DNA from: Flaviflexus huanghaiensis
Lineage (GTDB): Bacteria; Actinomycetota; Actinomycetes; Actinomycetales; Actinomycetaceae
Direction of reading: 5' to 3'
Assembly (NCBI RefSeq): GCF_014118685.1
Contig: NZ_JACFAK010000001.1
Location: 186,001 to 250,000 of the forward strand
DNA: 64,000 nucleotides
The notes under the pieces were generated by a model. It was not told the DNA's origin and ran no database searches. It saw nothing but the letters and a program-made list of their open reading frames with translations. Position numbers and translations under genes: made by a program. Positions within the stretch are counted from its first letter, which is position 1. Each line of letters begins with the position of its first letter. Shown here in pieces: positions 14,674 through 31,776 of this stretch.

Positions 14674-14784
14674 TCAGTCGGCGAGGAGCCGGACGATGGC
14701 TGCGAGCGTCTCGGAGATCCCACCCTCGATCCGCACATCCGCCAGCCTGTCGGCCTGAGTCGGCCCGCGGTTGATGATGGCGAT
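14674..14784 (-). pseudogene. C-terminal remnant of a second sirtuin gene
   Basis: On the minus strand this stretch encodes 36 residues and a stop, ending ETLAAIVRLLAD. Aligned by eye with the 3' end of the intact sirtuin gene (24053 onward) it shows about 12 mismatches in 111 nt, with the shared segments INRG-TQADRLADVRI and EGGISETLAA. The rest of the gene is missing: immediately upstream lies the 3' end of hemL in another frame. It looks like the leftover of a deleted copy, and its INRGPT motif is if anything the more typical sirtuin form. Confidence 0.75.
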
Positions 14785-14807: not shown

Positions 14808-16103
14808 TCAGGTTCGCGGGTTGGATGCTTCGGCTGCCGCGCGTGCCGCTACCGGGGCGGCGTCGAGGATGCGAGCGATGATCTCCTCGTCGTGCGTCGC
14901 AGAGACGAAATAGGCTTCGAACACGGACGGTGGGAGATGGATGCCGGAGCCGAGGAGCGAGTGGAAGAAGGGCGCGTAGCGGAACTGGTCCTGTGCGATC
15001 ACGTCGTCGTAGCTGCCCGCTGGATCGTCCGAGAACAGGATGGAGAAGAGCGAGCCGACCTTCTGGATGGTGTGGGCGACTCCCGCGCTGGTCAGGCTCT
15101 GTGAGAGGCCATCCGATAAGGCGTTGGCGGCCCTGTCGACTGCCGCGTAGACCTCATCGTCGGCCAGTGTGAGCGTGGCGATGCCGGCCGCCGTCGCCAA
15201 TGGGTTTCCAGAGAGGGTGCCCGCTTGATAGACGGGGCCGAGCGGTGCGAGATGGTCCATGACGTCCGCGCGTCCGCCGAGTGCCGCAAGAGGCATGCCC
15301 CCGCCGATGACCTTGCCGAAGCACATGAGGTCCGGCTCGTACGGGGTGGCCTGATCGATGCCCCAGAAGCCTGCGCGAGAGACGCGGAACCCAGTCAGCA
15401 CCTCGTCGAGGATGAGAAGAGCACCGCTCTTCTCGCATTCCGCCTTGAGGAAGGCATTGAATCCGGGCTCGGGCGGGACGACCCCCATATTGGCGGGAGC
15501 CGCCTCGGTGATAATGGCGGCAATGCGATCGCCGTGGGAGGCGAACAGCTGCGTGACCGCCTCTCGGTCGTTGTAGGGCAGGACGACCGTGTCTTCGACC
15601 GTACCCTTCGGAACACCGGCGGAGGACGACATGCCGAAGGTGGCGACACCAGATCCTGCCGCGACGAGCATGGAGTCCTCATGCCCGTGGTAGCAGCCGG
15701 CGAACTTGACGACGATATCCCTGCCGGTGAACCCGCGCGCCAGACGAATCGCGGTCATCGTCGCCTCTGTGCCGGTCGAGACGAAGCGGATCTTCTCGAC
15801 CGGGTCGATCCGACCGATGACAAGCTCGGCGAGTTCGATCTCGGCCTCGGTCGGAGCGCCGAACGAGAGGCCGCGCTCTGCGGCGCGCTGGACGGCGTCG
15901 ACGACGACGGGGTGAGCGTGCCCGAGCAGGGCAGGGCCCCACGACCCGACGAGGTCGATGTACTGCCTCTCGCGGGAGTAGACGAAGGGACCGGAGGCCC
16001 GGTCGATGAAGACGGGGGAGCCGCCGACCGAGCCGAAGGCGCGGACGGGCGAGTCCACGCCGCCGGGGATGACGCGCTGCGCGCGTGTGAACAGATCAGA
16101 CAC
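14808..16103 (-). CDS. hemL: Glutamate-1-semialdehyde 2,1-aminomutase
   Basis: HemL converts glutamate-1-semialdehyde to 5-aminolevulinate using PLP, the second step of the C5 heme pathway after HemA. The 431-residue protein starts [23 protein letters not shown] and has the aminotransferase features [33 protein letters not shown] and the PLP lysine in [17 protein letters not shown]. The GTG at 16103 has AGAAGG upstream and overlaps the hemB stop by 8 nt; a longer frame to 16163 has a proline/arginine-rich leader that is antisense-like and unlikely. It is the last gene of the hemE-hemY-hemC-hemD-hemB-hemL operon. Confidence 0.95.
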
Positions 16104-17067
16104 GTGATACCTTCTTCGCGATCTCGGTGGCCCAGTAGGTGCAGATGATGGTGGCGCCGGCACGGGTGATCGCGGTGACTGACTCCATGATGGTCCGGTC
16201 TCGATCCAGCCAGCCGTTCGCCGCCGCCGCCTCGATCATCGCGTATTCGCCGGACACCTGGTAGGCGGCAACGGGGACCGTCGAGGCCTGGGCGACATCC
16301 GACAGAACGTCGAGGTAGGAGCCTGCGGGTTTCACCATGACGACATCCGCTCCCTCGTCGATATCGAGGAGAGCCTCTCGCAGGCCCTCCGTCCGGTTTC
16401 CCACATCCATCTGGTATGTCCGGCGGTCGCCCTTCAGCTGCGAGTCGACTGCCTCTCGGAAGGGGCCGTAATAGGCGGATGCGTACTTGGCTGAGTAGGC
16501 GAGAATCGAGACGGAGGTGAAGCCGGCCTCGTCGAGAGCCGTTCGGCAGGCGGAGACCTGGCCATCCATCATGCCCGAGAGGCCGAGCATGTGGGCTCCG
16601 GCGCGAGCCTGTTCCACCGCCATCGCGCTGTAGATCTCCAGCGTCGCATCGTTGTCCACCGTTCCGTCGACGTCGAGGACGCCGCAGTGGCCATGATCGG
16701 TGAACTCGTCGAGGCACAGGTCGGCGATGATGACAGCCTCATCGCCCACTGCCTCTTTCAGGGCGCGCAGCCCACGGTTGAGGATTCCGTCGGGGTCCAC
16801 GCCAGCCGAGCCGAGGGCGTCATGGTCGGCCGGGACTCCGAAGAGCATGAGTCCGCCGACCCCGGCATCGACAGCCTCCCGAGCCGCGGCCTTGAGGGAA
16901 TCGATCGTGTGCTGGTAGACGCCCGGCATCGAGGCGATCGGTGCGGGCTCGGAGATGCCCTCGCGGACGAACATCGGCAGGACGAGGCTGCCGGCGGTGA
17001 AGCCGGCCTCTCGGACGAGGCCTCTCATAGCGGGGGTGGTGCGCAATCTACGCGGTCGATGAATCAC
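16096..17067 (-). CDS. hemB: Delta-aminolevulinic acid dehydratase (porphobilinogen synthase)
   Basis: HemB condenses two 5-aminolevulinate molecules to porphobilinogen. The 323-residue TIM-barrel protein has both active-site lysines, in [14 protein letters not shown] and [11 protein letters not shown]. The metal segment reads [14 protein letters not shown]: the first and third zinc cysteines are kept while the middle one is aspartate, an arrangement intermediate between zinc and magnesium types and familiar from actinobacteria. The GTG at 17067 has AAAGGA upstream and overlaps the end of hemD by 20 nt. The longer frame to 17172 adds a proline-rich stretch that is only the antisense of hemD. 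Confidence 0.95.
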
Positions 17068-17728
17068 GGCTGATCCTTTCCAGACAGGCCTCGAGGCCGC
17101 TGCGATCGGGGGTGGCAGAGGTGGCGGCAGCAGGGATTCTTGCCGCGTGAAGGGCGTGTGCGGTCGGTTCACCGATGGCGATGAGCGGGGGCAGGGTCGT
17201 GTTCGAGGGCCAGTGCGCGGCGATCGAACGGGCAGCGCTGCCCGCCGTGACGATCACGGCATCCGACTCGAGCAAGGCCAGCGCGGCAACCCCGACGGGA
17301 TCATCCTCGGAGCGGTAGATGTCAACGCGGTCGACCGAGTAGCCGAGATCGCGGAGACCCTCTTCGAGGACTGTGCTCGCCTGGACGGAGCAGGGGAAGA
17401 GGACGCGTCCCGTCCCGCGTGGGAAAGAGCGGACCATGGCCTCAGCGCTCGCGGGCGGGGGGCCGATGAAGTCGGCATCTCTCGGTGCGGCCGCGGCAGT
17501 GGCCTCGCCGACGCAGGCCAGATGCAGGTCCCTCGGCAGGGCGATGCCGTTCGATTCGAGGACATGGAAGACGAAAGGCGAGGTCACCGCGATCCAGTCC
17601 GCGTTCCCCACCCTCAGCGCGTCTGCAACGGCGGCAATCCCTGAGGGGATCGGGCTCCGGGAGGTGACCGGCATCGCGTGCCAGCCCTGTGTCAGAGCGG
17701 AGCGGGGTCGAGTGATGGCGACTCTCAT
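17048..17728 (-). CDS. hemD: Uroporphyrinogen-III synthase
   Basis: HemD cyclises hydroxymethylbilane to uroporphyrinogen III with inversion of ring D. The 226-residue protein is poorly conserved, as the family is, but has the bilobal pattern: VAITRP at the N-terminus, [39 protein letters not shown] and [10 protein letters not shown], then [16 protein letters not shown] and [14 protein letters not shown]. It overlaps the hemC stop by 4 nt (ATGA) and hemB begins inside it, so position and motifs agree. The protein is a little shorter than many homologs (about 250 residues). Confidence 0.9.
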
Positions 17729-18600
17729 TCTCCGACTCCGCGGTCGATGAACTCGTTCGCCAGCTCGGTCGCGACGGCGATGGGATCGTCGGCGATGAGT
17801 CGGCCCTCAACCTCTGCACCGCCGCCGACGTAGCGCGCATGCAGAGAGACCGTCGATCCGGATGCGTCCCCGAGCACCCCGACCGGTGTCGTGCAGCCCG
17901 CTCCCATTGCCGCCATGAAGGCGCGTTCTGCGGTGACTTCACGCCGTGTCTTGCGGTCGTCGACGCGTGACAGCGGCTCTTCGAACGGCGAGCCCTTGAC
18001 GGTCTCAAGCGCGAGGGCGCCCTGGGCGGCAGCGGGGACCATGACGTCGAAGGGCAGGTCCTGGCCCGTGTCGATCCCCAGCCGCAGGAGGCCTGCACGC
18101 GCAAGGATCACGCCGTCGAGGTCATGGTCGATGCGCGCCAGCCTCGTCGGCACATTGCCGCGGATGTCGACGACCGTGAGATCCGGCCGGAAGTTGAGAA
18201 GCTGTGCGGCGCGCCGAGGGGAGCCTGAGCCGATCGTCGCACCGGGAGGAAGATCGCGGTAGTCGACGTGGCCACAGAACACATCATGGGGGCTCACCCG
18301 CGGGGGAAAGAAGATCGATAGAGCGGGGTGATCAGCCGCTGGAAGGTCCTTCGCAGAGTGGACCGCGATATCGCATTGACCGGCGATCAGGGCATCGCGG
18401 ACGGCCGAGGTGAAGAGGCCCGTGCCGCCGATGACAGAGAGCGGAGACCGATCGACATCCCCCTTGGTGGTGATGCCGATGATCTCGAAGTCGGTGAGAT
18501 TGGGGTCAGCCTCGACGATGTCCCGGGCGACTGCGGTTGCCTGGGACACGGCGAGAGAGGACGTCCGAGTGCCGACGCGAAGCGTATGCATATGTTCCAT
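17725..18600 (-). CDS. hemC: Hydroxymethylbilane synthase (canonical copy)
   Basis: HemC polymerises four porphobilinogens into hydroxymethylbilane on a covalently bound dipyrromethane cofactor. The 291-residue protein keeps all expected catalytic elements: the flexible loop TKGDVDRSPLSVIGGTGLF (45-63), HSAKDLP (81-87) with the catalytic aspartate, SPRRAAQ (127-133), DIRGNVPTR (145-153), and the cofactor cysteine C236 in GAGCTTPVGVL. It lies between hemY and hemD, separated from hemY by 74 nt. The start could be the ATG at 18600 or at 18591; both give the conserved LRVGTRTSSLA. It is the functional counterpart of the degenerate paralog at 24862. Confidence 0.95.
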   Translation of the reverse strand: MEHMHTLRVGTRTSSLAVSQATAVARDIVEADPNLTDFEIIGITTKGDVDRSPLSVIGGTGLFTSAVRDALIAGQCDIAVHSAKDLPAADHPALSIFFPPRVSPHDVFCGHVDYRDLPPGATIGSGSPRRAAQLLNFRPDLTVVDIRGNVPTRLARIDHDLDGVILARAGLLRLGIDTGQDLPFDVMVPAAAQGALALETVKGSPFEEPLSRVDDRKTRREVTAERAFMAAMGAGCTTPVGVLGDASGSTVSLHARYVGGGAEVEGRLIADDPIAVATELANEFIDRGVGE

Positions 18601-18674
18601 GATACGACCCCGCGGTGTGCCTCGGGAGCAAGCGGCGGCTCAGTCCCGGAATCAGCACAAGCGACGAGGGTGCT

Positions 18675-19973
18675 CTACCTGAGTCGCGCGAGGATCGCCG
18701 CAGCCGTGTCGAGCGCGTGGGGGATGACGGCAGAGATGCCGGTGCCCGCCTTCCACGCGCCGACGATGCTGATGGAGGGGGGAGGCTCGAGCGCGTCCGC
18801 CCACGCCCTCAGCTCGGGGGTGGATGGCGTGAGGGCTCCGCCCCAGCGCACGGTGCGGGAGCCAGCAATCACCTCCTCGGTGAGGGCGACACCCATGAGC
18901 TGATTGACGTCCGCCAGAGCCTGGCCTGCCGACATGTCCTCGTTGAGTGCGTAGGACACTCGGATGATGTGGCGGTCGGTGACATCGCGCAGCCATGGCC
19001 ACTTGCAGGACAGATGGGTCAGTGCCTTGGCGCGCGACGACCCTGCGACACAGAGGAGCCCAGATCCTCGGGGTGCCGCATCCAGCTCTGGCGCATCGAG
19101 CACGAGCGTCACATGCGTCGTCGGTCTCCCCTGCGGGATCGTCAACGGTTCAAGATCCATGACGTGTCCGAGGAGGGACCGGGCGGAGGCGAGATCGGCC
19201 GCGAGGACGGTGTGCGAGGCGACGAACGAGCGTTCCGCCCCCTCGACGAGCGCAGTGACAGTCGTCTGCCCGGCCGGAGCCCTGCCGAGTGACGTGACCG
19301 TCGCGGAGGTGAGGAGCTCGGCGCCAGCCTCCTGGGCCTGCCGGGCGAGCGTGTCGACGAGGCGGAACATGCCGCCGACGACCGAGGCGACCGCTGGCCC
19401 GGACAGTCCTTTGGCGACTGCCTTCGCGAGGCTTCCCTCGGCGAGGAAATCAGTCTTGAGCTGCGGGTTGATGGCAAGGTTCGACGGGTCCGAGGAGTAG
19501 ATTGCGCCGGCAATGGGGCGTACAAGCCGCTCTAGCACCGCTGTGCCCATACGCGCTTCGACCAGATCCCCCAGGGTGTCCGCATCACTGCCGACCTCAG
19601 GACCGAGGGTGAGGTCCTCTTCGGCGCGCGTGGTGTCGCCGATGATCGACGCGACGTCGTCGGCTGAGGGATTCGCAGGGATGCCGAGGGACGAGTCCGC
19701 AGGGATCGGCAGGGCCGCACCATCCCAGATCCACGACCGCCCCGCGGGAAGGAGCGCCTCCAAGCCCAGCGACGCCAGATAATCGGTGACGCGCTGAGAG
19801 CGCCGAGCATACGACTCCGCGCCGATATCGACCCGGACGCCGCCGATCGTCTCTGCGGCTACGAGCCCGCCGAGTTTGTCGCGCTTCTCGAGAAGTGTGA
19901 CCCCGTGGCCGGCTCGGGCGAGCTCGCGCGCAGTGATGAGGCCTGCGAGGCCGCCCCCGACGATGACGATCAT
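18675..19973 (-). CDS. hemY: Coproporphyrinogen III oxidase, HemY/CgoX type
   Basis: This 432-residue FAD protein belongs to the HemY/CgoX family, which in Gram-positive bacteria oxidises coproporphyrinogen III to coproporphyrin III with oxygen. It begins with the Rossmann dinucleotide motif VIVGGGLAGLITARELARAG, has EKRDKLGGLV and GAESY downstream, and ends with the FAD-contacting IVGAWKAGTGISAVI. The assignment as coproporphyrinogen rather than protoporphyrinogen oxidase rests on the presence of cpfC and chdC in the same locus. It overlaps the hemE stop by 4 nt (ATGA). The protein is peripheral to the membrane or soluble; no transmembrane helix is seen. Confidence 0.92.
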   Translation of the reverse strand: MIVIVGGGLAGLITARELARAGHGVTLLEKRDKLGGLVAAETIGGVRVDIGAESYARRSQRVTDYLASLGLEALLPAGRSWIWDGAALPIPADSSLGIPANPSADDVASIIGDTTRAEEDLTLGPEVGSDADTLGDLVEARMGTAVLERLVRPIAGAIYSSDPSNLAINPQLKTDFLAEGSLAKAVAKGLSGPAVASVVGGMFRLVDTLARQAQEAGAELLTSATVTSLGRAPAGQTTVTALVEGAERSFVASHTVLAADLASARSLLGHVMDLEPLTIPQGRPTTHVTLVLDAPELDAAPRGSGLLCVAGSSRAKALTHLSCKWPWLRDVTDRHIIRVSYALNEDMSAGQALADVNQLMGVALTEEVIAGSRTVRWGGALTPSTPELRAWADALEPPPSISIVGAWKAGTGISAVIPHALDTAAAILARLR

Positions 19974-20965
19974 AGGGTCTGTTTGACGTAGGAGACGATG
20001 CGCGTGAGCACATCCGGATCGGTCGTGGGCGGCACGCCGTGGCCCAGGTTGAGGATATGGGAGGGGGCAGCGCGGCCCGCGGCCAGCACCGCGTCGATGT
20101 GCTCCTCGAGAACGCTCCAGGGCGCTGCGAGGAGAGCCGGGTCGATGTTGCCCTGCAGCGGCTTCCCCGGGACGCGACGAGCCACCTCGTCCAGCGGCAT
20201 CCGATAGTCCACGCCCAGCACGTCAGCACACGACGCCATCTGCTCAAGAAAGAGACTGGTGCCGGTCCCAAAGTGGATCGTCGGCACGGTCGCCCGCTCG
20301 AGCGCCAGTTTGGAGTAGGGGAGCACCTTCGACTCGTAATCGGCGACCGACAGCGAGCCCGCCCAGGAGTCGAACAGCTGGACGACGGAGGCGCCGGCTT
20401 CGATCTGGATCTCGAGGAAGCGACCGGTGATGTCGGCAGCCCATGTCATCAGTCGGTCCCAACTCGCAGGGTCCGCGTGCATGAGTGCGCGCGCCCCCAG
20501 ATGATCACGGGAGGGCCTGCCCTCAACCATGTAGGCGGCGAGCGTGAAGGGTGCGCCGCCGAAGCCGAGCACGGGGACATCGAGCTCCTGCACGCAGATC
20601 CCGATCGCCTCGCGGATCTCGGGAGAGTCCTCGAGTGTGTGGGCGGTGAGCTCAGTGATGTCGGCGGCCGACTGAATTGGCCTGCCGAATACGGGACCGA
20701 CTCCCGGCTTGATATCGACATCGATGCCTGCGATCTTCAGCGGGATGACGATGTCGGAGAAGAAGACCGCGCCGTCGACTCCGTGCCGGCGCACGGGTTG
20801 CATGGTGATCTCCGCCGCCAGCTCCGGGGTCAGGCATGCGTCCAGCATGTTGGTGTTCTCACGGAGCTTTCGATACTCGGGAAGGGACCTGCCGGCCTGC
20901 CTCATAAACCAGACGGGAACACGCTCGCCGCGGATACCCCGGGCTGCATCGTTGAGAAGGTGCAC
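19970..20965 (-). CDS. hemE: Uroporphyrinogen decarboxylase
   Basis: HemE removes four acetate carboxyls of uroporphyrinogen III to give coproporphyrinogen III. The 331-residue protein carries the signature FMRQAGRSLPEYR, the catalytic aspartate in FFSDIVIPL, VLGFGGAPFTLAAYMVEG, and the GLDxxxP-equivalent VDYRMPL with LQGNIDPALL. The GTG at 20965 (VHLLNDAARG) has GGAG 9 nt upstream and gives a normal N-terminus; the longer frame to 21082 reads into the divergent hemA start. It heads the six-gene minus-strand heme operon, with only 56 nt to the hemA start, so both promoters share this gap. Confidence 0.95.
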   Translation of the reverse strand: MHLLNDAARGIRGERVPVWFMRQAGRSLPEYRKLRENTNMLDACLTPELAAEITMQPVRRHGVDGAVFFSDIVIPLKIAGIDVDIKPGVGPVFGRPIQSAADITELTAHTLEDSPEIREAIGICVQELDVPVLGFGGAPFTLAAYMVEGRPSRDHLGARALMHADPASWDRLMTWAADITGRFLEIQIEAGASVVQLFDSWAGSLSVADYESKVLPYSKLALERATVPTIHFGTGTSLFLEQMASCADVLGVDYRMPLDEVARRVPGKPLQGNIDPALLAAPWSVLEEHIDAVLAAGRAAPSHILNLGHGVPPTTDPDVLTRIVSYVKQTL

Positions 20966-21021
20966 ATGCCCATTCTCCGATGAAGTGGACCTCGAAGCCA
21001 GTATAGGGAGACAATTGGTTC

Positions 21022-22320
21022 GTGAGCTTTGTGGTCCTAACAGCAAATCACCACGATCTCGAGATCTCTGACGTCGAGTCACTCGCCCAGCGGGGCGCCC
21101 GCATCAAGCGGGACATCCTCGGCTGCGAGGGGATCTCGGGCGCCGTGGTGCTGTCAACGTGCAACCGATACGACGTGTATCTCGAGGCGGAGGAGCACGC
21201 GGCCCGGAAGGCTATGGAGCTTCTGGGCGGCGAGGTGGAGATTACGGCCTTCACCGGAATTGACGCTGCTCGGCATGTGTTCGAGGTTGCCTCAGGGCTC
21301 GATTCTATGGTGGTCGGAGAGCGGGAGATCGTCGGGCAGTTCCGCCGGGCGCTTGCCGAGGCCCGCGAGGAGGGCACGACCTCGCCACTCCTCGAACAGA
21401 CGCTTCAGAGTGCACTCCGCACATCGCGCGAAATCGCCGTGAAGACCGATTTCTCTCGTGCGGGCCGCTCCATCGTCGGGGTCGCGCTGGATCTGGCGGG
21501 CAACGTCGCATGTGAACGCGGTCAGTACCACTGGGACGACATCGGCGGTCCCACCGTCCCGGCAACCGACTGGTCGGGCGTCAATGTTCTGCTCGTCGGC
21601 ACAGGCGCGTATGCGGGTGCGACGGTCGCGGCGCTCGAGGAGCGCGGCGCGGAGGAGGTGCGGGTATGGTCCAAGTCCGAGCGCGGCCGACAGTTCGCGG
21701 CCGATCATGGAATCTCGTTCTCTCCGGAACTCGACCTGGCGTGGCCCGATGTCATCGTGCTCTGCAGGGGCACTGGATCGCCGGTTCTGACCGTGGACGC
21801 CGTGCGTAAGGCGAAGAAGACCCGAGGGCCGCTCACTCTCGTCGACCTCGCGAGGTCGAGAGACGTCGAATCTGCGGCGGGCGACCTCGAGGATGTCACT
21901 CTCATCGACCTTGAGACCGTGCGCAGGCACGTCCCGGCAGCGGCCGCCGGGGATGTCGAGAGTGCTCAGCGGCTCATCGCTGAAGGACTTGAGAAGCTCG
22001 ACGGAGATCTTCTCGGCAGGACCATGGACCCGCTCATTGTCGCCGTCCGGAACATGTACGCGACCGAGCTCGAGAAGGAGCTGAGCAGGATGCCGGCCGC
22101 GGGCGATGTGCCGGCGGAACATGCCGTCCGCGCCCTGCAGCGTCTGGCTGCCGCAATCGCCTACCACCCCACGAGAGCCGCTCAGCAGGCAGCCCAGAGC
22201 GGTCGGGGACACCAGTTCCATGAGGCCGCCGAGCTCGTCTTCGGAATGGCGCTCCCCGAACCGACCGACCCGGTGCTTGCCCCTCCGGCATGCCCGCGAA
22301 AGGATAACTCGAATGGTTGA
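21022..22320 (+). CDS. hemA: Glutamyl-tRNA reductase
   Basis: HemA uses NADPH to reduce glutamyl-tRNA(Glu) to glutamate-1-semialdehyde, the first committed and usually rate-controlling step of the C5 heme pathway. The 432-residue protein has the catalytic cysteine C47 in VLSTCNRYDVYLE, the SGLDSMVVGEREIVGQ motif, a Rossmann domain beginning NVLLVGTGAYAG, and a C-terminal dimerisation helix region. The GTG start has GGGAG about 10 nt upstream. It overlaps cpfC by 8 nt. It is divergent from hemE, so the first enzyme, the uro-decarboxylase branch and the late enzymes can be controlled from one short intergenic region. Confidence 0.95.
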   Translation: MSFVVLTANHHDLEISDVESLAQRGARIKRDILGCEGISGAVVLSTCNRYDVYLEAEEHAARKAMELLGGEVEITAFTGIDAARHVFEVASGLDSMVVGEREIVGQFRRALAEAREEGTTSPLLEQTLQSALRTSREIAVKTDFSRAGRSIVGVALDLAGNVACERGQYHWDDIGGPTVPATDWSGVNVLLVGTGAYAGATVAALEERGAEEVRVWSKSERGRQFAADHGISFSPELDLAWPDVIVLCRGTGSPVLTVDAVRKAKKTRGPLTLVDLARSRDVESAAGDLEDVTLIDLETVRRHVPAAAAGDVESAQRLIAEGLEKLDGDLLGRTMDPLIVAVRNMYATELEKELSRMPAAGDVPAEHAVRALQRLAAAIAYHPTRAAQQAAQSGRGHQFHEAAELVFGMALPEPTDPVLAPPACPRKDNSNG

Positions 22321-23293
22321 TGCCTACCTCGTCGTCTCCTACGGAGGCCCGAACGGGCCCGAGGACGTTGTTCCGTTCCTGCGGAATGCGACCAAAGGTC
22401 GGGGGATCCCCGATGAACGCCTTGAGCAGGTGGGGGAGCACTATTACATGTTCGGCGGCAAATCGCCGATCAACGAGCTCAACGCTGCACTCGTCCAGGA
22501 TCTTCGCGACGAGCTCGCACGGCGCGGCGACAGCACACCCGTCGCGCTCGGCAACCGCAATTGGGAGCCCTACGGCAACGATGTCATCCAGGAGCTGTAC
22601 GAGAACGGCGCGCGGAACATCCTTGCCATCGCCACATCGGCCTATTCCTCCTACTCATCGTGCCGTCAGTATCGAGAGGACCTCGCGCGCTGGCTGGGCG
22701 AGGTCGATCTGCCTGATCTGACCATCCGCAAGGTGAAGCAGTTCTGGAATACCGACGGCTTCTACCGGGCGAGCGTGACTGCGGTTCGAGAATCCTTGGA
22801 GGCGGCTCCCGGGTCGCGACTCATCTTCGTCACTCATTCGATCCCGAACGCCATGAACGACTCATCCGGTCTGGAGTTCGGCATGACATACGAGCAGCAG
22901 CATCTCGATCTCGCGCGCCGGATAGCAGACGAGCTCGGCGTCGAGGACTGGGACATGGCGTACTGCTCTCGCTCTGGAAGCCCGCACACTCCATGGCTGG
23001 AGCCGGACATCTGTGATCATCTCGAGGATCTCAAGACTGACGGCATCACGGGCGTCGTCGTCGCGCCCATCGGCTTCATCTCGGATCATATGGAGGTCCT
23101 CTACGACCTCGACACCGAGGCGAAGGCAAAGGCGGAAGAGCTCGGCCTCGCATTCGAGCGTGCCGCGACTGTGGGCACCGATCCGGATTTCATCTCCCAA
23201 ATCGCCGACCTGCTGCAGAATCCCGGTAGAACCTCATACTGCGAGGAGAACTGCTGTGCACTCTCCCGCTCCGCAACCCTCCCCGCACTCTAA
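22313..23293 (+). CDS. cpfC: Coproporphyrin III ferrochelatase
   Basis: CpfC (historically HemH) inserts ferrous iron into coproporphyrin III. The 326-residue protein starts at the ATG 22313, preceded by AAAGGA, giving VVSYGGPNGPEDVVPFL as in actinobacterial ferrochelatases. The catalytic histidine is in FVTHSIPNAMN and the second conserved segment is GVVVAPIGFISDHMEVLYDLD. The C-terminus carries the cluster YCEENCCALS and there is another cysteine in AYCSRSGSPHTPW, which could be ligands of the [2Fe-2S] centre described for mycobacterial and other ferrochelatases; this is inference from the pattern. It is coupled to hemA by overlap and followed 10 nt later by chdC. Confidence 0.93.
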   Translation: MVDAYLVVSYGGPNGPEDVVPFLRNATKGRGIPDERLEQVGEHYYMFGGKSPINELNAALVQDLRDELARRGDSTPVALGNRNWEPYGNDVIQELYENGARNILAIATSAYSSYSSCRQYREDLARWLGEVDLPDLTIRKVKQFWNTDGFYRASVTAVRESLEAAPGSRLIFVTHSIPNAMNDSSGLEFGMTYEQQHLDLARRIADELGVEDWDMAYCSRSGSPHTPWLEPDICDHLEDLKTDGITGVVVAPIGFISDHMEVLYDLDTEAKAKAEELGLAFERAATVGTDPDFISQIADLLQNPGRTSYCEENCCALSRSATLPAL

Positions 23294-23303
23294 GGAGACA
23301 CAC

Positions 23304-24008
23304 GTGACGTCACTGCACGCCCCTGACGACGAGACCGTTGATCATGTCAACACGTCGATCCGCTACACGATGTGGTCCGTCTTCGCGACGACCGGCGAGA
23401 TTTCGCCGGACGAGCGCGAAACCGTCGTCGCCGACGCTGAATCCGCGGTTGCGGCGACCGGCGTGACGGTGCGCGGCTATTACGACGTCGCAGGGCTCCG
23501 TGCAGATGCTGACCTGATGGTGTGGTGGCATGCCGAGACGATCGAGGAGCTGCAGGCCGCCTATCATGCCCTGCTCGGCTCGAGACTGCCGATCACTCCT
23601 GTCTGGTCGGTGGCCGGCCTGCACCGGCCCGCTGAGTTCAACAAGAGGCACCTGCCGGGATTCCTTCTCAGCGATGAGGCGCCGAAATACATGGCCGTCT
23701 ATCCGTTCGTCCGCTCCTTCGAGTGGTACCTGCTTGAGGACGACGAGCGGATGGCGATCCTCCGGGACCACGGCATGAAGGGCGTTCCCTACAAGGACGT
23801 CATCGCGTCGACCGTCGCGTGCTTCGCTCTCAACGACTACGAGTGGATTCTTGCTCTTGAGGCGGACGAGCTCCATCGCATCGTCGACCTCATGAGGGAC
23901 TTCCGATACACGGAGGCGCGCCGGCACGTGCGGGTCGACACGCCCTTCTACACGGGCGCGCTCGTCTCACTCTCGGAGTGGGCGGCCCGCCAGCCGCAGG
24001 GAGAATAG
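23304..24008 (+). CDS. chdC: Coproheme decarboxylase
   Basis: ChdC (HemQ) decarboxylates two propionates of coproheme with peroxide to form heme b, the final step of the Gram-positive pathway. The 234-residue protein is of the chlorite-dismutase-like fold: IRYTMWSVF at the start, the central HLPGFLLSDEAPKYMAVYPFVRS with the conserved tyrosine, the heme-ligand histidine region around ILRDHGMKGVPYKDV, and MRDFRYTEARRHV near the end. The GTG at 23304 is preceded by AAGGAG. A longer frame starting at 23013 overlaps cpfC and is rejected. It ends the hemA-cpfC-chdC operon and converges with the sirtuin gene. Confidence 0.94.
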   Translation: MTSLHAPDDETVDHVNTSIRYTMWSVFATTGEISPDERETVVADAESAVAATGVTVRGYYDVAGLRADADLMVWWHAETIEELQAAYHALLGSRLPITPVWSVAGLHRPAEFNKRHLPGFLLSDEAPKYMAVYPFVRSFEWYLLEDDERMAILRDHGMKGVPYKDVIASTVACFALNDYEWILALEADELHRIVDLMRDFRYTEARRHVRVDTPFYTGALVSLSEWAARQPQGE

Positions 24009-24052
24009 CGGTCGAGGGGATCGCCCGCGGCAGCGGGTCCACCCCCTTCGAG

Positions 24053-24865
24053 TCAGCCGGCGAGAACCCGGTCGACTGCCGCGAGCGTCTCGGAAATCCC
24101 GCCCTCGATCCGCACATCCGCCAGCCTGTCGGCCTGCGTCGACCCACGGTTGATGATGGCGATATCGGCGCCGGAGGACAGTCCCTGGGTGACCACCCAC
24201 ATCCCCGTCATGACGAGCAGGGAGCTGCCGACCACGAGGATCGTCTTCGCGTCCCGAGCGTAGTCGAAGGCCTCGTCCATCGCCTGGACTGCTTCGCCGA
24301 AGAAGACGATGTCGGGCTTGAGGGTGCCCCCGCAGGAGGCACACGGGGCGACGGTGAACGTGGACTCGGCCGCCTTGGCATAGTCCGCCTCGGCGAGGAT
24401 CGCCGCATTCGCCGGATCCGGATCGTCGACCGTGTGCGGGTTCAGCTCGCGCAGCCGCGGGTCGAGGGCGGCCCGGTCCGTGACCTCGCCGCAGTCGAGG
24501 CAGGTCACGCGGGTGAACGACCCGTGCATCTCCGCCACCCTCTCCGAGCCCGCCTTGACATGGAGTCCGTCGATGTTCTGCGTCGCGGTGCCGGTGACGA
24601 TGCCGTCCCGCTCCCACTCGGCGAGAATCGCATGACCCTCCGTCGGTGCGAGGGCGTCGAGGGCCCGCCACGTCTCCTGGTTCCTCTGCCACACCCAGCG
24701 CTGCCACGTGTGCGAGCCCGTGAACATGTCGAAGTCGACGCTCGGCTTCTCCGAGCCTCCACTGCCCCGATAGTCAGGCAGGCCGGAATCCGTTGAGAGC
24801 CCAGCACCGGAGACGACCACGACATCGCCGCGGCTCATGAGCTCCGCGAGGCGCTCAATGCTCAC
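24053..24865 (-). CDS. Sir2-family NAD-dependent protein deacylase
   Basis: This 270-residue sirtuin would remove acyl groups from lysines using NAD. It has all core motifs: VSGAGLSTDSGLPDYRG (NAD binding), GTATQNIDGLH with the catalytic region, the catalytic histidine in EMHGSF, a zinc site of four cysteines in CLDCGE and CASCGG, KPDIVFFGE, GSSLLVMTG and IINRGSTQAD. The domain order resembles the SIRT4-like class II group. It starts within the last codons of the HemC-like gene (ATGA overlap), so the two are translated together. A second, truncated copy of this gene's 3' end lies beside hemL at 14674-14784. Substrates cannot be deduced. Confidence 0.9.
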   Translation of the reverse strand: MSIERLAELMSRGDVVVVSGAGLSTDSGLPDYRGSGGSEKPSVDFDMFTGSHTWQRWVWQRNQETWRALDALAPTEGHAILAEWERDGIVTGTATQNIDGLHVKAGSERVAEMHGSFTRVTCLDCGEVTDRAALDPRLRELNPHTVDDPDPANAAILAEADYAKAAESTFTVAPCASCGGTLKPDIVFFGEAVQAMDEAFDYARDAKTILVVGSSLLVMTGMWVVTQGLSSGADIAIINRGSTQADRLADVRIEGGISETLAAVDRVLAG

Positions 24866-25659
24866 GCCCGCACCCCGCGGCGGATGAACTCGGCCGCGAG
24901 ATCGTGGCCGAGCTTCTCGGGATTGTTGGAGCTACGCCGAATCTCGACCTTGCCGCTGCCCATGAACCGGGCGTGGAGCGCGACCGTCCTACCCGTTGAG
25001 CGGGCAAGAACGCCGACCGGGGCCGATGGTGCGAGGCTGAGCTCGCGGACGAAGCTGCGCTCGGCGATCATCTCCAGCCTGGTCGTCTGATCGTCGACGA
25101 GGTCGAGAGTGTGCTCGACCTGCGAGCCGCGACGCGCCTCAAGGGCAATCGCCCCCTGGCCCGCGACGGGCACCATGACCTCGTAGGGCAGATCCTGGCC
25201 GATGTCGCGGCCGAGCCGGGTGAGCTCCGCCCGCGAGACGATGATGCCGTCGAGCTCGCCGACTTGAGCGAGACGCTCCTCGAGGTCCCCGCCGATGTCG
25301 ACTGGCCGCAGGTCCTGCCGGAAGTGGGTGATCTGCGCGGCGCGGTTGGCCGAATCGACCCCGACCCGCGCCCCGTGGGGCATGCCCCGATAGTCCGTGG
25401 GACCGACGAACGCATCCTGAGGGCTCTCCCGAGGAAGGAAGACGACGGAGAGATCGTCATGATCGGCCAGCGGAATGTCGGAGGCCGCGTGGACGGCGAC
25501 GTCGCAGTGACCGGCGAGCAGGGCCTGCCGCAGGTCCTCAGGCCCGCCATCGACCTCGACGATCTCGTACCCGTCGAAGCCGTCTGCCGCGAGCAGGGTG
25601 TCACCTGCGGCCGCGGCCTGAGCGAGGTGGAGGGCTGAGGAACTGGTGCCGATGCGCAT
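24862..25659 (-). CDS. Degenerate hydroxymethylbilane synthase paralog (predicted pseudoenzyme)
   Basis: This 265-residue protein aligns along its length with HemC of the same locus but lacks what HemC needs. The cofactor cysteine (C236 in the canonical copy) is replaced by proline P211 in SLAPSAPVGVL. The active-site loop containing TKGD and GGTGLF is absent, leaving VEVDGGPEDLRQ. HSAKD has become HAASD (lysine lost), SPRR has become SANR, and RGNVPTR has become GGDLEER. The downstream VMVPVAGQGAIALEA and PVGVL segments are well kept, so the fold is probably intact. It has a TATACT box 7 nt before the ATG and is coupled to a sirtuin gene. The role is unknown; porphobilinogen or bilane binding, or a regulatory partner, is speculation. 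Confidence 0.85.
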   Translation of the reverse strand: MRIGTSSSALHLAQAAAAGDTLLAADGFDGYEIVEVDGGPEDLRQALLAGHCDVAVHAASDIPLADHDDLSVVFLPRESPQDAFVGPTDYRGMPHGARVGVDSANRAAQITHFRQDLRPVDIGGDLEERLAQVGELDGIIVSRAELTRLGRDIGQDLPYEVMVPVAGQGAIALEARRGSQVEHTLDLVDDQTTRLEMIAERSFVRELSLAPSAPVGVLARSTGRTVALHARFMGSGKVEIRRSSNNPEKLGHDLAAEFIRRGVRA

Positions 25660-25666
25660 GCCGACC

Positions 25667-25672
25667 AGTATA
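25667..25672 (-). promoter_or_regulatory. Putative -10 box of a leaderless transcript (HemC-like gene)
   Basis: On the minus strand TATACT is followed by 7 nt and the ATG at 25659, with no ribosome binding site. Confidence 0.45.
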
Positions 25673-25760
25673 CGTACGGCACGTGTTCGGCCGCCGGTGG
25701 GGGTGAGGCAGGCTGCTTCTGCGCAGTCGGTTCCAACCCCTGCGGCCGCGCACTCTGCGC

Positions 25761-26006
25761 TCAGAGGATGAGCGGGAGAAGAAGGATTACGATGACGAGG
25801 ATGAGGCCGGCTATCGCCGGGTAGAGGGCCCGCTTGCTGCGCAGGAGATTGAAGTCATCTCCGCTCGATCCGCCGCTCGCACTGCGGGCAATCCGATAAT
25901 CGGCGCTGTGGCCCAGCAGGTCATCGGGGTGCCGTCTGTCGGCGGGCCGGTCGTCGTGGTCATCGTGCCTGTCCTCGCCGTGGCGCTCGCGGGAATCGTC
26001 AGCCAT
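25761..26006 (-). CDS. Small tail-anchored membrane protein with His/Asp/Arg-rich N-terminus
   Basis: This 81-residue product has about 33 residues very rich in histidine, aspartate and arginine (for example RHGEDRHDDHDDR), a linker, and one C-terminal membrane helix (about 60-81: YPAIAGLILVIVILLLPLIL). A ribosome binding site AAAGGGGG precedes the ATG, which supports a real gene. The topology would leave the charged region in the cytoplasm with the C-terminus in or across the membrane. The His/Asp content could bind metal, which is inference. It lies 101 nt upstream of the HemC-like gene on the same strand and might be the first gene of that unit. No family was recognised. Confidence 0.6.
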   Translation of the reverse strand: MADDSRERHGEDRHDDHDDRPADRRHPDDLLGHSADYRIARSASGGSSGDDFNLLRSKRALYPAIAGLILVIVILLLPLIL

Positions 26007-26128
26007 GAGTGCCCCCTTTCTCCTGCCACGCTACGACATCGGCCGCGTCCACGGTTGGAAAATCGGGTCGCGGGTGGCGGTCGGGGCGACTGCCCGGGAC
26101 AGGGCGCGGCGGATGCTGCCGAACGGAA

Positions 26129-26821
26129 TCAGACCTGGCTGCCCAGTTCCCGAAGGATTCGCAGAGTCGAGTCCAGGTGCTCGACTTCGAGCTCGACGAC
26201 CCGCTCAGTATCTTTCGCGATGAGGGCGTCGATGATGGCTCGGTGGGCGGCGTGGGATTCCTCGATCTGCTCGGGCCGCAGTCGCAGCGAGATCGACACG
26301 TAGGGGGATGAGGCTCCCGCCAGCATCTGGACCATCCGCGAGGTCCACGAGCTGTCGTACTTCATCGTGACCTCATGGAACCTCTCGTTGATGGCTGCGA
26401 AATCGAGGAGATCATCTGTTCCCTCCATCTGCTCGATGAGGCTGAGGCCGAGTGAGATGTCCTCCTGGGTGACGGAATCGATCGTCCTGCGGATGAGAAG
26501 AGGCTCGATCAGCTTCCTCATGCTGTAGATCTCTTCGATTGCCGACAGATCGAGCGAGGCGACAGTCGTCCCCCGATAGGGGAGGGAGGCCACAAGACCC
26601 TCCTCGTTGAGCCGCTGAAGAGCCTCGCGCACCGGCGTGATGGAGAGATCGAGGTCGCGGGCGAGGTCTGCCTGGACCAGCCTGTCCCCGGACTTCAGCC
26701 GACCGGTGATGATCGCCTTCCGAATCGCGGTATGGGCGTAGTCCGCCTGGGTCCGCGGCGCTCCGGCAGAGCGCGGCGATCCCGTCAGCCACGTGCCGGC
26801 GTGCTCTGTGTTGCGGGTCAT
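26129..26821 (-). CDS. GntR-family transcriptional regulator (FadR/FCD subfamily)
   Basis: This 230-residue protein has an N-terminal winged helix-turn-helix (YAHTAIRKAIITGRLKSGDRLVQADLARDLDLSITPVREALQRL) and a C-terminal all-helical FCD ligand domain with EIYSMRKLIEPLLIRR, FHEVTMK, and a final HRAIIDAL (the FCD histidine-rich metal or ligand pocket). The start is the ATG at 26821, which has the strong site GGGAGGTG upstream; ATGs at 26851 and 26866 are possible but lack this. It is divergent from the transporter-asparaginase operon across an AT-rich gap with an inverted repeat, and very probably controls it in response to a substrate of that pathway. Confidence 0.88.
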   Translation of the reverse strand: MTRNTEHAGTWLTGSPRSAGAPRTQADYAHTAIRKAIITGRLKSGDRLVQADLARDLDLSITPVREALQRLNEEGLVASLPYRGTTVASLDLSAIEEIYSMRKLIEPLLIRRTIDSVTQEDISLGLSLIEQMEGTDDLLDFAAINERFHEVTMKYDSSWTSRMVQMLAGASSPYVSISLRLRPEQIEESHAAHRAIIDALIAKDTERVVELEVEHLDSTLRILRELGSQV

Positions 26822-26897
26822 CGCCACCTCCCTTGGTCCATCTTCCACCATCAGCTCCCAACGCAATGCTTCCCTCGGGACATAAGTCCATCGAGTC

Positions 26898-26929
26898 GAA
26901 TTTTACAGAATATATCTTATAAGAAATTC
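26898..26929. promoter_or_regulatory. AT-rich inverted repeat between GntR gene and transporter operon
   Basis: GAATTT (26898-26903) and AAATTC (26924-26929) flank a stretch that is strikingly AT-rich for this genome (tacagaatatatcttataag). It lies just before the transporter start. It is a candidate promoter and operator for the neighbouring regulator; no family consensus was matched. Confidence 0.4.
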
Positions 26930-26947
26930 AACGGAGAAGGAGCTCCC

Positions 26948-28225
26948 ATGGAGATTGCAGGGCAGGTTTTGATCGGCGTGACGATCATTCTCATGGTCGT
27001 CGGCAGGACGCCTCTCTACACAACCGCCATCGTCGGCGCGACGCTGGCAGCGCTGGTATACGGCATCCCGGTCACGGGAGAAGCCGAGGACACGACGATC
27101 AAGTCGCTTGTCATCGGCGGCCTCAACCCCGTCATCGCCGATATGGCGGGCGTTCTCATCTTCATCGGCGCGATGGAGCACACGGGATACCTGAGGGTTC
27201 TCGTCAACGCCATCATCCGCCAGGGCAACAAGCTCGGACGAGGGCCGGGCGTCGCCGCCTCCGGCGGCATCGCCGCCGGGATCATCGGCGGCTTCACCGG
27301 CTTCACCCAGCCCGCCATCACCGCCGTCGTCACCGGACCCGCCTCGGTCAAACTGGGTGTCGACCCGAACAAGTCCGCCGGCACCCACGCCCACGCGGGC
27401 CACCTCGGCAACTTCGCGGGATTCACCCACCCCACGCTCCTCGCCGTCATCGCCACAGCCGGCATCACCTTCGGCTGGATCAACGCCATCGGCCTCGCGA
27501 CTGCGCTCACCATCTTCGGTCTGTCCTTCGCCCGCATGCGTGGTGACGTCAAGAAGGTCAAGGCGACGTCCGCCGAGGAATCGAAGGAGGCTCTGTCCGA
27601 GTTCGCCCGCAAGGAGGGAGAGCCGACAGTCTGGTGGGTCCTCCTGCCGTTCCTCCTCCTCGTCGTGGGCTTCGCCATGGGCTACCCGGTCTTCGCGGTC
27701 GGCTTCGTCGTTTCGGTCATCGTCATGATCATGGCCCGCGCCAATCCGATGGAGGCGGAGAAGTCGATGCTCGAGTCGGTCAAGCGCGTCGCCATCCCGC
27801 TCATCGCCACGATCGGCTTTCTCTACCTCTCCGGCGTCATCTCGGCCGTTGGCATCACCGGCCTTCTCGGCGGCTGGTTCGAGCCTCTCATCGAGGCTGC
27901 CCCGATCATCACGCTGGTGCTCGTCTCGGCCGTAGCCGGCCTTCTCACGCAGTCGAACTCCGCATCCGCCGCCATCATCCTCCCCATGCTCACCATCGTC
28001 ATGGCGCAGGGTGATGTGAATCCGCTGGCTGCGGCTGTCGCCGCAGCCGGTCCGACCGCGATCATGCAATACTTCCTCACGGGCGGCCCGGTCGCTGCAC
28101 TCGCGACCACAGTTCCTGTGGTTCCCGGCTCTGAGCTGAAGGCGGCGAACCGCTTCCAGCGGCCGTCCCAGCTGGGTGGACTGCTGTTCGTCTCCATCGT
28201 CGCCGTCGTTCTCGGAGGATTCTGA
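26948..28225 (+). CDS. Multi-pass anion/amino-acid type permease
   Basis: This 425-residue protein is almost wholly hydrophobic with about 10-12 predicted membrane helices. It shows the layout of ion-transporter superfamily carriers such as GntP, dicarboxylate and citrate permeases: an N-terminal half with GLNPVIADMAGVLIFIGAMEH, a re-entrant-like GFTGFTQPAITAVVTGP, HLGNFAGFTHPT, and a symmetric C-terminal half with LLTQSNSASAAIILPM and GPTAIMQYFLTGGPVAA. The family was not pinned down. The ATG at 26948 has AAGGAG upstream; the longer frame starting at 26732 runs antisense to the regulator. The asparaginase gene follows after 2 nt, so the substrate is probably asparagine, aspartate or a related acid (inference). 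Confidence 0.75.
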   Translation: MEIAGQVLIGVTIILMVVGRTPLYTTAIVGATLAALVYGIPVTGEAEDTTIKSLVIGGLNPVIADMAGVLIFIGAMEHTGYLRVLVNAIIRQGNKLGRGPGVAASGGIAAGIIGGFTGFTQPAITAVVTGPASVKLGVDPNKSAGTHAHAGHLGNFAGFTHPTLLAVIATAGITFGWINAIGLATALTIFGLSFARMRGDVKKVKATSAEESKEALSEFARKEGEPTVWWVLLPFLLLVVGFAMGYPVFAVGFVVSVIVMIMARANPMEAEKSMLESVKRVAIPLIATIGFLYLSGVISAVGITGLLGGWFEPLIEAAPIITLVLVSAVAGLLTQSNSASAAIILPMLTIVMAQGDVNPLAAAVAAAGPTAIMQYFLTGGPVAALATTVPVVPGSELKAANRFQRPSQLGGLLFVSIVAVVLGGF

Positions 28226-28227
28226 TC

Positions 28228-29217
28228 ATGAAGCCGATCATCGCTGTCGGAGCTCTCGGCGGAACCATCGCCATGTCGGCCGAGGGTACGGGTGCCGTCA
28301 GGCCAGAACTGTCCGCGGATGATCTGGTGGGGGCAGTACCTGCTCTCACCGATGTGGCACAGATCCGCGCCGAGACGATCTCGAACGTCGCATCGCCCGC
28401 GATCGTCCCAAGGAACGTCCTCGATGCGCTCGACTTCGCGACGAGGTCGATCGACGAGGGTGCGACGGGCGTCGTCCTCACCCACGGTACCGACACCCTC
28501 GAGGAGACCGCCTACCTGCTTGACCTCCTGTGGGATCGGGAGGAGCCGCTCGTCGTCACCGGTGCCATGAGATCGCCGAACCTGCCGGGTGCCGACGGCC
28601 CCGCCAATCTGCTGGCCGCCGTCGTCACCGCCGGGTCGGAGGACGCAAGGGGGATGGGAGTACTCGTCGTCCTTGACGACACCGTGCACCTCGCCCGCCT
28701 TGCCGCCAAGACCCATGCAACGGCTGTGTGGACGTTCCAGTCGCCCGGCTGGGGTCCGGTCGGCCGGGTGGCCGAGAGACGCCTGCGGATGGCGCTTCGG
28801 CCGATGCGGATGTTCGAACCACTGCCGGCGCCGGGTGATGGTCCGATCCGCATTCCCATTGTCGAGACCCCGTTCGGGGACGAGGGGGACTGGGTCCGGG
28901 CCATCGCCTCCCTCGAGCCCCCGGCCCTTGTCGTCCAGGCCTCCGGAGTGGGGCACATGTCCGAGCCGGTGTCCGATGCGTGCGAGGAGCTTGTCAGGAG
29001 CGGTATCCCCGTCATCATGGCCTCCCGCACGGGCAGCGGCACCACCCTCGAGAAGTCCTACGGGTACCCAGGCTCCGAACAGGACCTCATCGCGCGTGGG
29101 CTCATCCCGACCGGCTTCCTGACGGCCCGCAAGACTCGGCTCCTCGTCCACGTGCTCCTTGAGTCCGGAGCAGACGAGGCCACCATCCGCAGGGAGATCG
29201 CCGCGAGGGGATTCTAG
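28228..29217 (+). CDS. L-asparaginase (type I/II family)
   Basis: This 329-residue enzyme hydrolyses asparagine to aspartate and ammonia. The first catalytic threonine T13 is in GALGGTIAM and the second triad motif is THGTDT (85-90), followed by LEETAYLLDL; RTGSGTT and the C-terminal SSGADEATIRREI-like tail complete the fold. There is no signal peptide, so it acts in the cytoplasm on imported asparagine, which fits the permease gene 2 nt upstream. The start ATG has GGAGG in the end of the permease gene. Arginine and isoaspartyl dipeptides are possible alternative substrates for some relatives. A hairpin follows within 25 nt of the stop. Confidence 0.92.
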   Translation: MKPIIAVGALGGTIAMSAEGTGAVRPELSADDLVGAVPALTDVAQIRAETISNVASPAIVPRNVLDALDFATRSIDEGATGVVLTHGTDTLEETAYLLDLLWDREEPLVVTGAMRSPNLPGADGPANLLAAVVTAGSEDARGMGVLVVLDDTVHLARLAAKTHATAVWTFQSPGWGPVGRVAERRLRMALRPMRMFEPLPAPGDGPIRIPIVETPFGDEGDWVRAIASLEPPALVVQASGVGHMSEPVSDACEELVRSGIPVIMASRTGSGTTLEKSYGYPGSEQDLIARGLIPTGFLTARKTRLLVHVLLESGADEATIRREIAARGF

Positions 29218-29239
29218 CGACACACGAACCGCCGCGACA

Positions 29240-29265
29240 GAACCGCGCCCTACGGGGTGCGGTTC
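29240..29265 (+). terminator. Hairpin terminator after asparaginase gene
   Basis: GAACCGC (29240-29246) pairs with GCGGTTC (29259-29265), and the loop holds the smaller stem CCC-taC-GGG. Confidence 0.55.
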
Positions 29266-29451
29266 GTCGTCGGAGCCGGATGGTGCGCAGGTGCCGCGCG
29301 AAGCGAGCCCGCTGACTCGACCTCTGTGCACGGAAGGTGGCAGCCGGCTTGGATCTCGCTGGACGCTCTCGAGCCTCGGCATACGGCAGAAACCGCGTGA
29401 AATCGGCCGTGATCTTGGGAACGTTCCATCGCTTTCCCCCTGGTCGGCCTA

Positions 29452-29480
29452 TTGAAACACCACGGATCATGCGAGAATAA
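29452..29480 (+). promoter_or_regulatory. Putative sigma70-type promoter of fructose-bisphosphate aldolase gene
   Basis: TTGAAA (29452-29457), a 17-nt spacer and GAATAA (29475-29480) precede the gene, with a 30-nt leader containing AAGGAG. The -10 match is only moderate. Confidence 0.4.
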
Positions 29481-29516
29481 ACGGTGGTTACAGCCGTCTA
29501 ACGAAGGAGTCCCACC

Positions 29517-30539
<1,023 letters not shown>

Positions 30540-30556
30540 CACCTGATCTCACAATG

Positions 30557-30584
30557 GCGGCAGGTCCCTGAGGGGGCCTGCCGC
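30557..30584 (+). terminator. Hairpin terminator after fbaA
   Basis: GCGGCAGGTCCC pairs with GGGGCCTGCCGC around a short loop, 17 nt after the stop, and is followed by TTCTTA. Confidence 0.75.
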
Positions 30585-30756
30585 TTCTTAGTACGCTCAC
30601 GACCTCAGACAGGCTTTGGCGATCGGAGGACCATAGCTGGGCTAGGCACCCACGAGTAACGAACATGCGTCCCTCCTCACCTCCGATCTTTAGCGCTAGG
30701 GTGGGGCACAGGCGAGCGCGGGTGAGATACGTCTACGAGAGGCCGGGGGAGAGTCA

Positions 30757-31776
30757 ATGGTTGACCAGCACAAGGTTGCGCGGTATCGAGAGTTCGGAGG
30801 CCCCGATGTTATCCACGTTGAGAACGAGGACATCCCGAACGTGGGACCACGGGAGGTTGTGGTCGAGATCCGCAGGTCTGGGATCAATCCCCTCGATGTC
30901 AAGACTCGCGCGGGCGCTCAGAATAAACCCATGCCAGAAGGCGGCATCATCCCGCACACCGATGCCGCCGGAACCATCCGCCGAATCGGGGATGATGTCG
31001 ACGGCCTTGCTGAAGGACAGCGCGTCTGGGTATGGGGAGTGGGAAGGCCCGTCGGCACCGCGGCGACATTCGCGGTAGCTCCCGCAGAGAGAGTCGCGCC
31101 GCTACCCGATAATGCGTCGTGTGATCTCGGTGCCAGCCTCGGGATCCCCGCCATCACGGCTGCGCTCTGCCTCAGCCGCTACGAAGATCGCGTCATCGAA
31201 CCGTCGACGCACGCGCTCGCGGGCAGAACGGTCCTTGTTCGCGGCGGTGGCGCAGTCGCCCATTTCACCGTTCAGCTCGCGAAGCTCATGGGCGCCACTG
31301 TCGTCGCCTCGGCATCACCCGCCAAACTTGACGCACTCATACGTGCGGGGGCTCATCACGCCGTTGACCGGACGAGCCGGAACGTTGATGAGACGTTGAG
31401 AGGAATCAGCCCGGACGGCTACGACCTCATCGTCGACGTTAGTCCCGCAACGAACATGCGCTCCAACATCGAACTTGCCGCATTCCGAGCCACGGTCGCG
31501 ATCTACGCGCGGGAGGGCGGTGACTCCGCTGACGTTAGCTTCAGGATTCTCCAGGCAAAGAACATGACGATGAGAAGCATTCGGACGATTGATCTTCCGC
31601 AGGACGAGATGCAACTGGCGGCAGATGTCGTCACGTGGGCGCTCGAAGCCGGGGCTCTGAACGTGGGCGAGGACCATGGTCTGCCGCTCCACGTCTTCAG
31701 CCTCGACAAGATAGCCGACGCCCATGCGGCAGCCGAGTCACGGGACTTTCACGGAAAGGCGCTTCTCGCTCTGTGA
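30757..31776 (+). CDS. MDR-family NADPH:quinone-type oxidoreductase
   Basis: This 339-residue medium-chain dehydrogenase/reductase lacks the structural and catalytic zinc cysteines and resembles quinone reductases: YREFGGPDVIHVEN, SGINPLDVKTRAG, the GroES-like segment PHTDAAGTIRRIGDDVDGLAEGQRVW, and a Rossmann domain at VLVRGGGAVAHFTVQLAKLMGATVV. The Rossmann glycine pattern GGGAVA is a slightly modified GxGxxG. The substrate is unknown; electrophilic quinones or alkenals are usual for relatives. The ATG is preceded by GGGGGAG. It converges with the unknown membrane protein gene, and a TAGGGT box at 30698-30703 may be its -10. Confidence 0.85.
   Translation: MVDQHKVARYREFGGPDVIHVENEDIPNVGPREVVVEIRRSGINPLDVKTRAGAQNKPMPEGGIIPHTDAAGTIRRIGDDVDGLAEGQRVWVWGVGRPVGTAATFAVAPAERVAPLPDNASCDLGASLGIPAITAALCLSRYEDRVIEPSTHALAGRTVLVRGGGAVAHFTVQLAKLMGATVVASASPAKLDALIRAGAHHAVDRTSRNVDETLRGISPDGYDLIVDVSPATNMRSNIELAAFRATVAIYAREGGDSADVSFRILQAKNMTMRSIRTIDLPQDEMQLAADVVTWALEAGALNVGEDHGLPLHVFSLDKIADAHAAAESRDFHGKALLAL

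Follow-up and report, generated by a model that had tools for sequence, protein, structure and literature searches.

A HemC paralog without catalytic residues, under purifying selection beside a sirtuin gene in Flaviflexus

The window, a stretch of 64,000 nucleotides from Flaviflexus huanghaiensis (genome G000), encodes a cysteine-less paralog of HemC (HMBS/PBGD), hereafter HemC', next to a sirtuin gene (Table 1). We show that HemC' descends from a Flaviflexus HemC, and that it has lost catalytic residues while being held under purifying selection in three species. The explanation we favor, to which we give a probability of about one half, is that hemC' would be the remnant hemC of an operon, kept as a non-catalytic binding protein of the HMBS fold that is made together with the sirtuin.

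Table 1. Features of the hemC'-sir2 locus and of the heme cluster of G000, by position in the window
Feature	Position	Strand	Basis or remark
sir2 3'-end remnant, 111 bp, directly after hemL	14674..14784	-	89% identity to 24053-24163
canonical hemC, within a hemE-hemY-hemC-hemD-hemB-hemL run	17725..18600	-	TIGR00212, 252 bits
sir2 (sirtuin of 270 aa), with 5OJ7 as its best solved relative	24053..24865	-	PF02146
hemC' stop and sir2 start sharing 4 nt, GTGA	24862..24865	-	junction sequence; ATGA in G003
hemC', HMBS/PBGD paralog without the cofactor cysteine, 265 aa	24862..25659	-	PF01379, residue losses, omega << 1
TATACT, possible -10 box, 7 nt before the hemC' ATG	25667..25672	-	by-eye upstream comparison
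small ORF of 81 aa between gntR and hemC', by eye rich in Asp/His at its start and hydrophobic in its tail	25761..26006	-	

Residue losses and predicted fold of HemC'

The homology of HemC' to HMBS is well beyond chance, since it scores 112.4 bits against PF01379 (cut-off 22.1; the match spans 58-203 of the 207 profile positions) and matches 1PDA with an E-value of 6e-22. Against TIGR00212, the NCBIfam hemC equivalog, it reaches 151.2 bits, below the cut-off of 164, and against the C-terminal domain PF03900 it reaches 23.2 bits (E 9e-5), below the cut-off of 26; the canonical HemC of G000 scores 251.9 and 36.1 bits, respectively.

We aligned HemC' of G000 and its orthologs in G003 and G004 with 36 canonical HemC rows (the 30 best-scoring of 40 searched genomes, L048 and five Flaviflexus sequences, with L043 omitted); residues carry E. 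coli numbers taken from the alignment to 1PDA, and the reading frames of G003 and G005 were cut back to the start agreeing with the other HemCs. At the position of Cys242, all three HemC' carry a proline and all 36 canonical rows a cysteine, and the active-site loop (about residues 45-57) is deleted or replaced in each of the three. The initial annotation, comparing the two HemCs of the window, had already reported the dipyrromethane-binding cysteine as a proline, the TKGD...GGTGLF loop as gone, HSAKD as HAASD, SPRR as SANR and RGNV as GGDL, next to preserved VMVP-A-QGA-ALE and PVGVL segments; the alignment bears out this description, with the loop largely missing and VMVP.AGQGA and PVGVL kept. 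Loop deletion, the proline, SANR, GDLEER and SRAEL are common to the three proteins. Arg11, Arg131, Arg132 and Arg176 of HMBS are cofactor or substrate arginines. The further claim that the key arginines are lost holds for Arg11, Arg131 and Arg149, absent from all three HemC', but not for Arg132 and Arg155, which all three retain; Arg176 is retained in G000 alone.

In HemC' of G000, Arg131 is replaced by Asn, Arg149 by Gly, Lys83 by Ser, Asn151 by Asp, Thr154 by Glu and Gly173 by Glu. HemC' has newly gained four acidic residues at near-constant positions. Of the 71 columns that are at least 90% constant in the 36 canonical HemCs, the three HemC' agree in retaining 33 and in having lost 25, and the other 13 are mixed. 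Asp84 is retained in G000 and G004 and is an Asn in G003. In the parts of PMC8561815 consulted, Cys242 is given as the cofactor anchor, Asp84 is assigned to catalysis, Arg149 and Arg155 have roles as well, and the role of the mobile loop is perhaps incidental up to the ES2 stage.

The predicted models of HemC' are confident (pLDDT 95.0 for G000 and 94.4 for G003). The G000 model superposes on 2YPN with a Z-score of 34.5 and an rmsd of 1.7 over 265 residues, and the G003 model fits solved HMBS structures more loosely (rmsd 2.6-4.0). As 36 of the 39 alignment rows are canonical, the models show compatibility with the HMBS fold rather than proof of it. Beyond HMBS, the next structural matches are chiefly solute-binding and receptor ligand-binding domains, with Z-scores of about 10. 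HemC' might instead retain another enzymatic activity in the same cleft, as the equivalents of Asp84, Arg132 and Arg155 persist in G000 and G004 and the weak Foldseek matches include Thi5, MqnA/MqnD and HisG. We consider this quite unlikely: the non-HMBS TM-scores are at most 0.44 among the matches listed, no new catalytic motif was recognized in HemC', and the G003 ortholog has exchanged Asp84 for Asn.

Distribution, selection and evolutionary rate

HemC' is present in three of six Flaviflexus genomes, with 97% identity between G000 and G004 and 64-66% to G003. The three proteins form a single clade (support 100/100) nested among Flaviflexus HemCs. The species tree from RpoB and RpoC, rooted at the midpoint, reads (G002,((G001,G005),(G003,(G000,G004)))), with all three inner branches starred. 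Whether the cysteine-less form is a conserved clade had been left to a profile search, which finds the short HemC' form in these three species of one genus among 213 family genomes. By profile coverage and score, the short form was found in no other genus of the family among unbroken matches; HemC matches in pieces occur in G011, G064, G087, G089 and G211. Outside the Flaviflexus HemC' proteins, residues were read in the 36 canonical rows and G010, the remainder being judged by profile alone. No HemC match whatever was obtained in 92 of the 213 genomes. A scan of genome contigs gave two loci, one in F. massiliensis, which is without hemC', and a canonical HemC of Paenarthrobacter.

Two HemC matches per genome also occur elsewhere. 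In 396 genomes of the phylum, several large-genome members have two matches each among the matches listed, and so do, with the same restriction, many members of genus g62 (large-genome actinobacteria); some of these copies may lack the cysteine.

An artefact or recent mutation, which a restored cysteine in close relatives could have revealed, is ruled out by the identical changes in G004 and G003. Nor is the gene broken and drifting in sister strains, as its frames are open and omega is well below 1 in the clade of three species, in agreement with the initial annotation's view that it is under selection despite its lost catalytic residues. Between G000 and G004, hemC' has 15 silent and 7 amino-acid codon differences (omega 0.085; omega = 1 rejected, 2dlnL 32), compared with 13 and 3 in canonical hemC (omega 0.066). 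Between G000 and G003, omega is 0.031 with saturated dS (2dlnL 186 against omega = 1). A branch model gave 0.038 for the background, 0.18 for the HemC' stem and 0.061 within the HemC' clade, where fixing omega at 1 costs a 2dlnL of 195; three omega classes brought no significant gain over one (lnL -4877.2 versus -4878.3). On an alternative tree the within-clade estimate was 0.064 (2dlnL 195), and the stem value reached its upper bound of 20 and is hence uninterpretable. These omega tests rule out free neutral decay of HemC'.

Constraint is uneven along the protein. For residues 1-76, 77-175 and 176-265, boundaries set by hand after the HMBS domains, HemC' identity between G000 and G003 is 44%, 79% and 62%. 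The corresponding control regions of canonical HemC from G000 and G001 give 77%, 78% and 58%, a lenient yardstick given that these species are more distant than G000 and G003. Among neighboring genes, G000 and G003 share 73% identity in sir2, 78% in asnA, 86% in gntP, 92% in fba and 64% in gntR. Of the 19 near-constant columns at which G000 and G003 both have an ungapped change, 13 show an identical new residue, so most HemC' changes are older than the split of these two species; less constant columns give similar fractions (26/45 and 21/34), and the sharing is thus no sign of special constraint. HemC' is constrained, chiefly in its middle part, yet less so than canonical HemC.

Slow decay under weak constraint is accordingly a possible course, in which hemC' would be a pseudogene kept in frame only to bring ribosomes to the overlapping sir2. 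The restriction to one genus, the divergent first part, the 4-nt overlap, evolution faster than that of the neighbors, the origin of HemC' where hemD, hemB and hemL were lost, and the pattern of shared residues at near-constant columns, no stronger than at variable control columns, would all fit it, as would the G003 copy, which has lost more of its first part along with the catalytic Asp. Coupling, however, exerts no selection on amino acids, and yet omega = 1 is rejected in both pairwise comparisons; moreover, the sir2 remnant of the same block does show decay, its G004 copy having gaps relative to the intact gene. We therefore regard slow decay as unlikely.

The sirtuin, the heme pathway and the history of the locus

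The downstream gene scores 130.1 bits against PF02146 (cut-off 24), has orthologs of 98% identity in G004 and 73% in G003, and is under strong purifying selection (omega 0.033 and 0.036; the pairwise comparison of G001 and G005 is saturated, with t of 40). Its product is a sirtuin that we take to be class II-like. A sirtuin occupies the syntenic locus in all six Flaviflexus genomes: gene order is hemC-hemD-hemB-hemL-sir2 in G001, G002 and G005 and hemC'-sir2 in G000, G004 and G003. Outside the genus, none of the 26 genomes with both hemC and sir2 has them within 50 kb (the nearest, by eye, are about 55 kb apart), and the link is thus particular to Flaviflexus. The overlap of hemC' and sir2 is likely to couple their translation.

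A -10-like hexamer at equal spacing precedes hemC' of G003 and G004 and canonical hemC, at its assumed start, of G000 and G001; it is also visible upstream of G005 canonical hemC, where the sequence viewed stops before the ATG. This match in hexamer and spacing suggests that hemC' probably retained the near-leaderless hemC promoter of the operon. For the small ORF upstream, G003 has a weakly similar sequence in the equivalent position (50% over 34 aa, E 6e-6), with one stop inside the match, and G001 and G002 give only weak matches at other places (E 0.04-0.07).

The G003 genome, a single contig and 99% complete, carries no canonical HemC, HemB or ferrochelatase, all three of which are found in each of the other five Flaviflexus genomes. 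In its 20-kb syntenic stretch, hemA, D, E, H, L, Q and Y gave no match. Without HemB, no porphobilinogen, the substrate of HemC, is expected. All six species, G003 included, have a subunit of cytochrome bd, which is a heme protein, so that heme import is presumed in G003, where these three synthesis genes are gone. G003 resembles a heme auxotroph, which would be a loss of heme synthesis within one genus.

These observations bear on the initial annotation's idea of a pseudoenzyme with a role in heme control. Its first half stands, catalytic residues having been lost under selection; heme control is left unsupported by the evidence from G003. As a decoy subunit, a porphobilinogen sensor or a heme sensor, HemC' could regulate canonical HemC or the heme level, and in G000 and G004 it does lie inside the heme gene cluster. 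Since G003 retains HemC' without canonical HemC, HemB or ferrochelatase, regulation of heme synthesis is not its sole role there, and the cysteine, Arg11, Arg131 and Arg149 are missing from all three orthologs. With a cytochrome bd subunit in every species and heme presumably imported by G003, sensing of imported heme is possible; overall, we find heme regulation unlikely.

In G000 and G004, an intact heme cluster sits between hemC'-sir2 and spoU, and the 111-bp remnant of a second sir2 directly after its hemL is a scar of duplication or insertion. The remnant matches the sir2 genes of G000 and G004 over its full length (89%) and those of G003, G001 and G002 over only 35-56 bp, an indication that the event came late, in the line of G000 and G004. 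Positions 12607-30584, a block whose left boundary lies beyond the stretch compared, show 97% DNA identity when G000 is compared with G004, against 90% for rpoBC and 72% for the gene by fba (30754-31763), which suggests a recent exchange of the heme block between the two. As G000 and G004 share this recently exchanged block, independent conservation of HemC' rests mainly on the comparison of G000 with G003.

In the trees, HemC' groups with canonical HemC of G001 and G005 and not with that of G000 and G004 (support 98/94; 93/94 in a second tree, not starred). AU tests were marginal, both against a grouping of HemC' with the canonical HemCs of G000 and G004 (p 0.042) and against a single clade of the four ingroup canonical HemCs (p 0.050). 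hemC' may have arisen by duplication within the genome or from a second cluster, or the heme cluster may have been lost and then regained in G000 and G004.

Our preferred explanation, a remnant hemC kept as a binding protein, runs as follows. An ancestral hemC-hemD-hemB-hemL-sir2 operon would have lost hemD, hemB and hemL, leaving hemC behind its own promoter as the first cistron before sir2, where it may then have been repurposed. With the polypyrrole cofactor presumably lost and acidic residues now standing at some cleft positions that used to be basic or neutral, HemC' would act by binding, mainly via its conserved middle part. It could bind a small ligand that is cationic or, alternatively, another protein, and by gene position the co-made sirtuin would be the likeliest partner. 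The charge argument concerns single residues; the net charge of the whole protein is not shifted (-13, -11 and -14 for HemC' versus -12, -11, -7, -4 and -11 for canonical HemCs), a point against a simple charge mechanism. The greater loss of the first part and of the catalytic Asp in the G003 copy, and the number of orthologs (n = 3), also weaken the case for a function. More specifically, HemC' might be a dedicated adaptor or regulatory subunit of the sirtuin, with its old cleft as the dock for a cationic ligand or for a substrate bearing lysine, a proposal that we hold to be doubtful; if it is true, an enzyme of housekeeping biosynthesis would have survived the loss of its own pathway via a role in protein modification.

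Comparison with known systems

Pseudoenzymes occur in many protein families; for the HMBS family, none was found in the open-access papers searched. HemC' resembles HMBS/PBGD (HemC, PF01379, TIGR00212) in its predicted fold, in 33 of 71 near-constant columns and in the promoter-like element of its gene. It differs from HMBS/PBGD in lacking the cysteine, the loop, Arg11, Arg131, Arg149 and Lys83 and in falling under the equivalog cut-off, and hemC' is followed by sir2 where canonical hemC is followed by hemD-hemB-hemL.

A parallel exists elsewhere in the family in a HemC-HemD fusion-like protein (L043:9337-11169 in G010, a member of a different genus), which, like HemC', is a second HemC beside a canonical one. 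It is likewise Cys-less, with a tyrosine at this position, and both motifs are altered as well (SPRR to SVLR, HSxKD to HGVIE). Unlike HemC', it is 610 aa long, carries a HEM4 domain and has its nearest sirtuin 309 kb away, and its very long branch sits apart from HemC' in the tree, in a position that is unsure. The two probably originated independently.

By profile, the Flaviflexus sir2 is ordinary and like other bacterial sirtuins (PF02146), its closest solved relative, 5OJ7, being a deacylase. It is unlike them in its place after hemL or hemC', an arrangement seen within 50 kb in none of the 26 outside genomes. A review reports, in the part consulted, that acylation of heme enzymes has been found and that its effect is unknown (PMC10991733). 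Given this reported acylation, a sirtuin that ends a heme operon, after hemL or hemC' in six of six genomes, is a lead. HemC' itself, in a species without the adjacent pathway steps, offers a clean setting for non-bilane functions of the HMBS fold.
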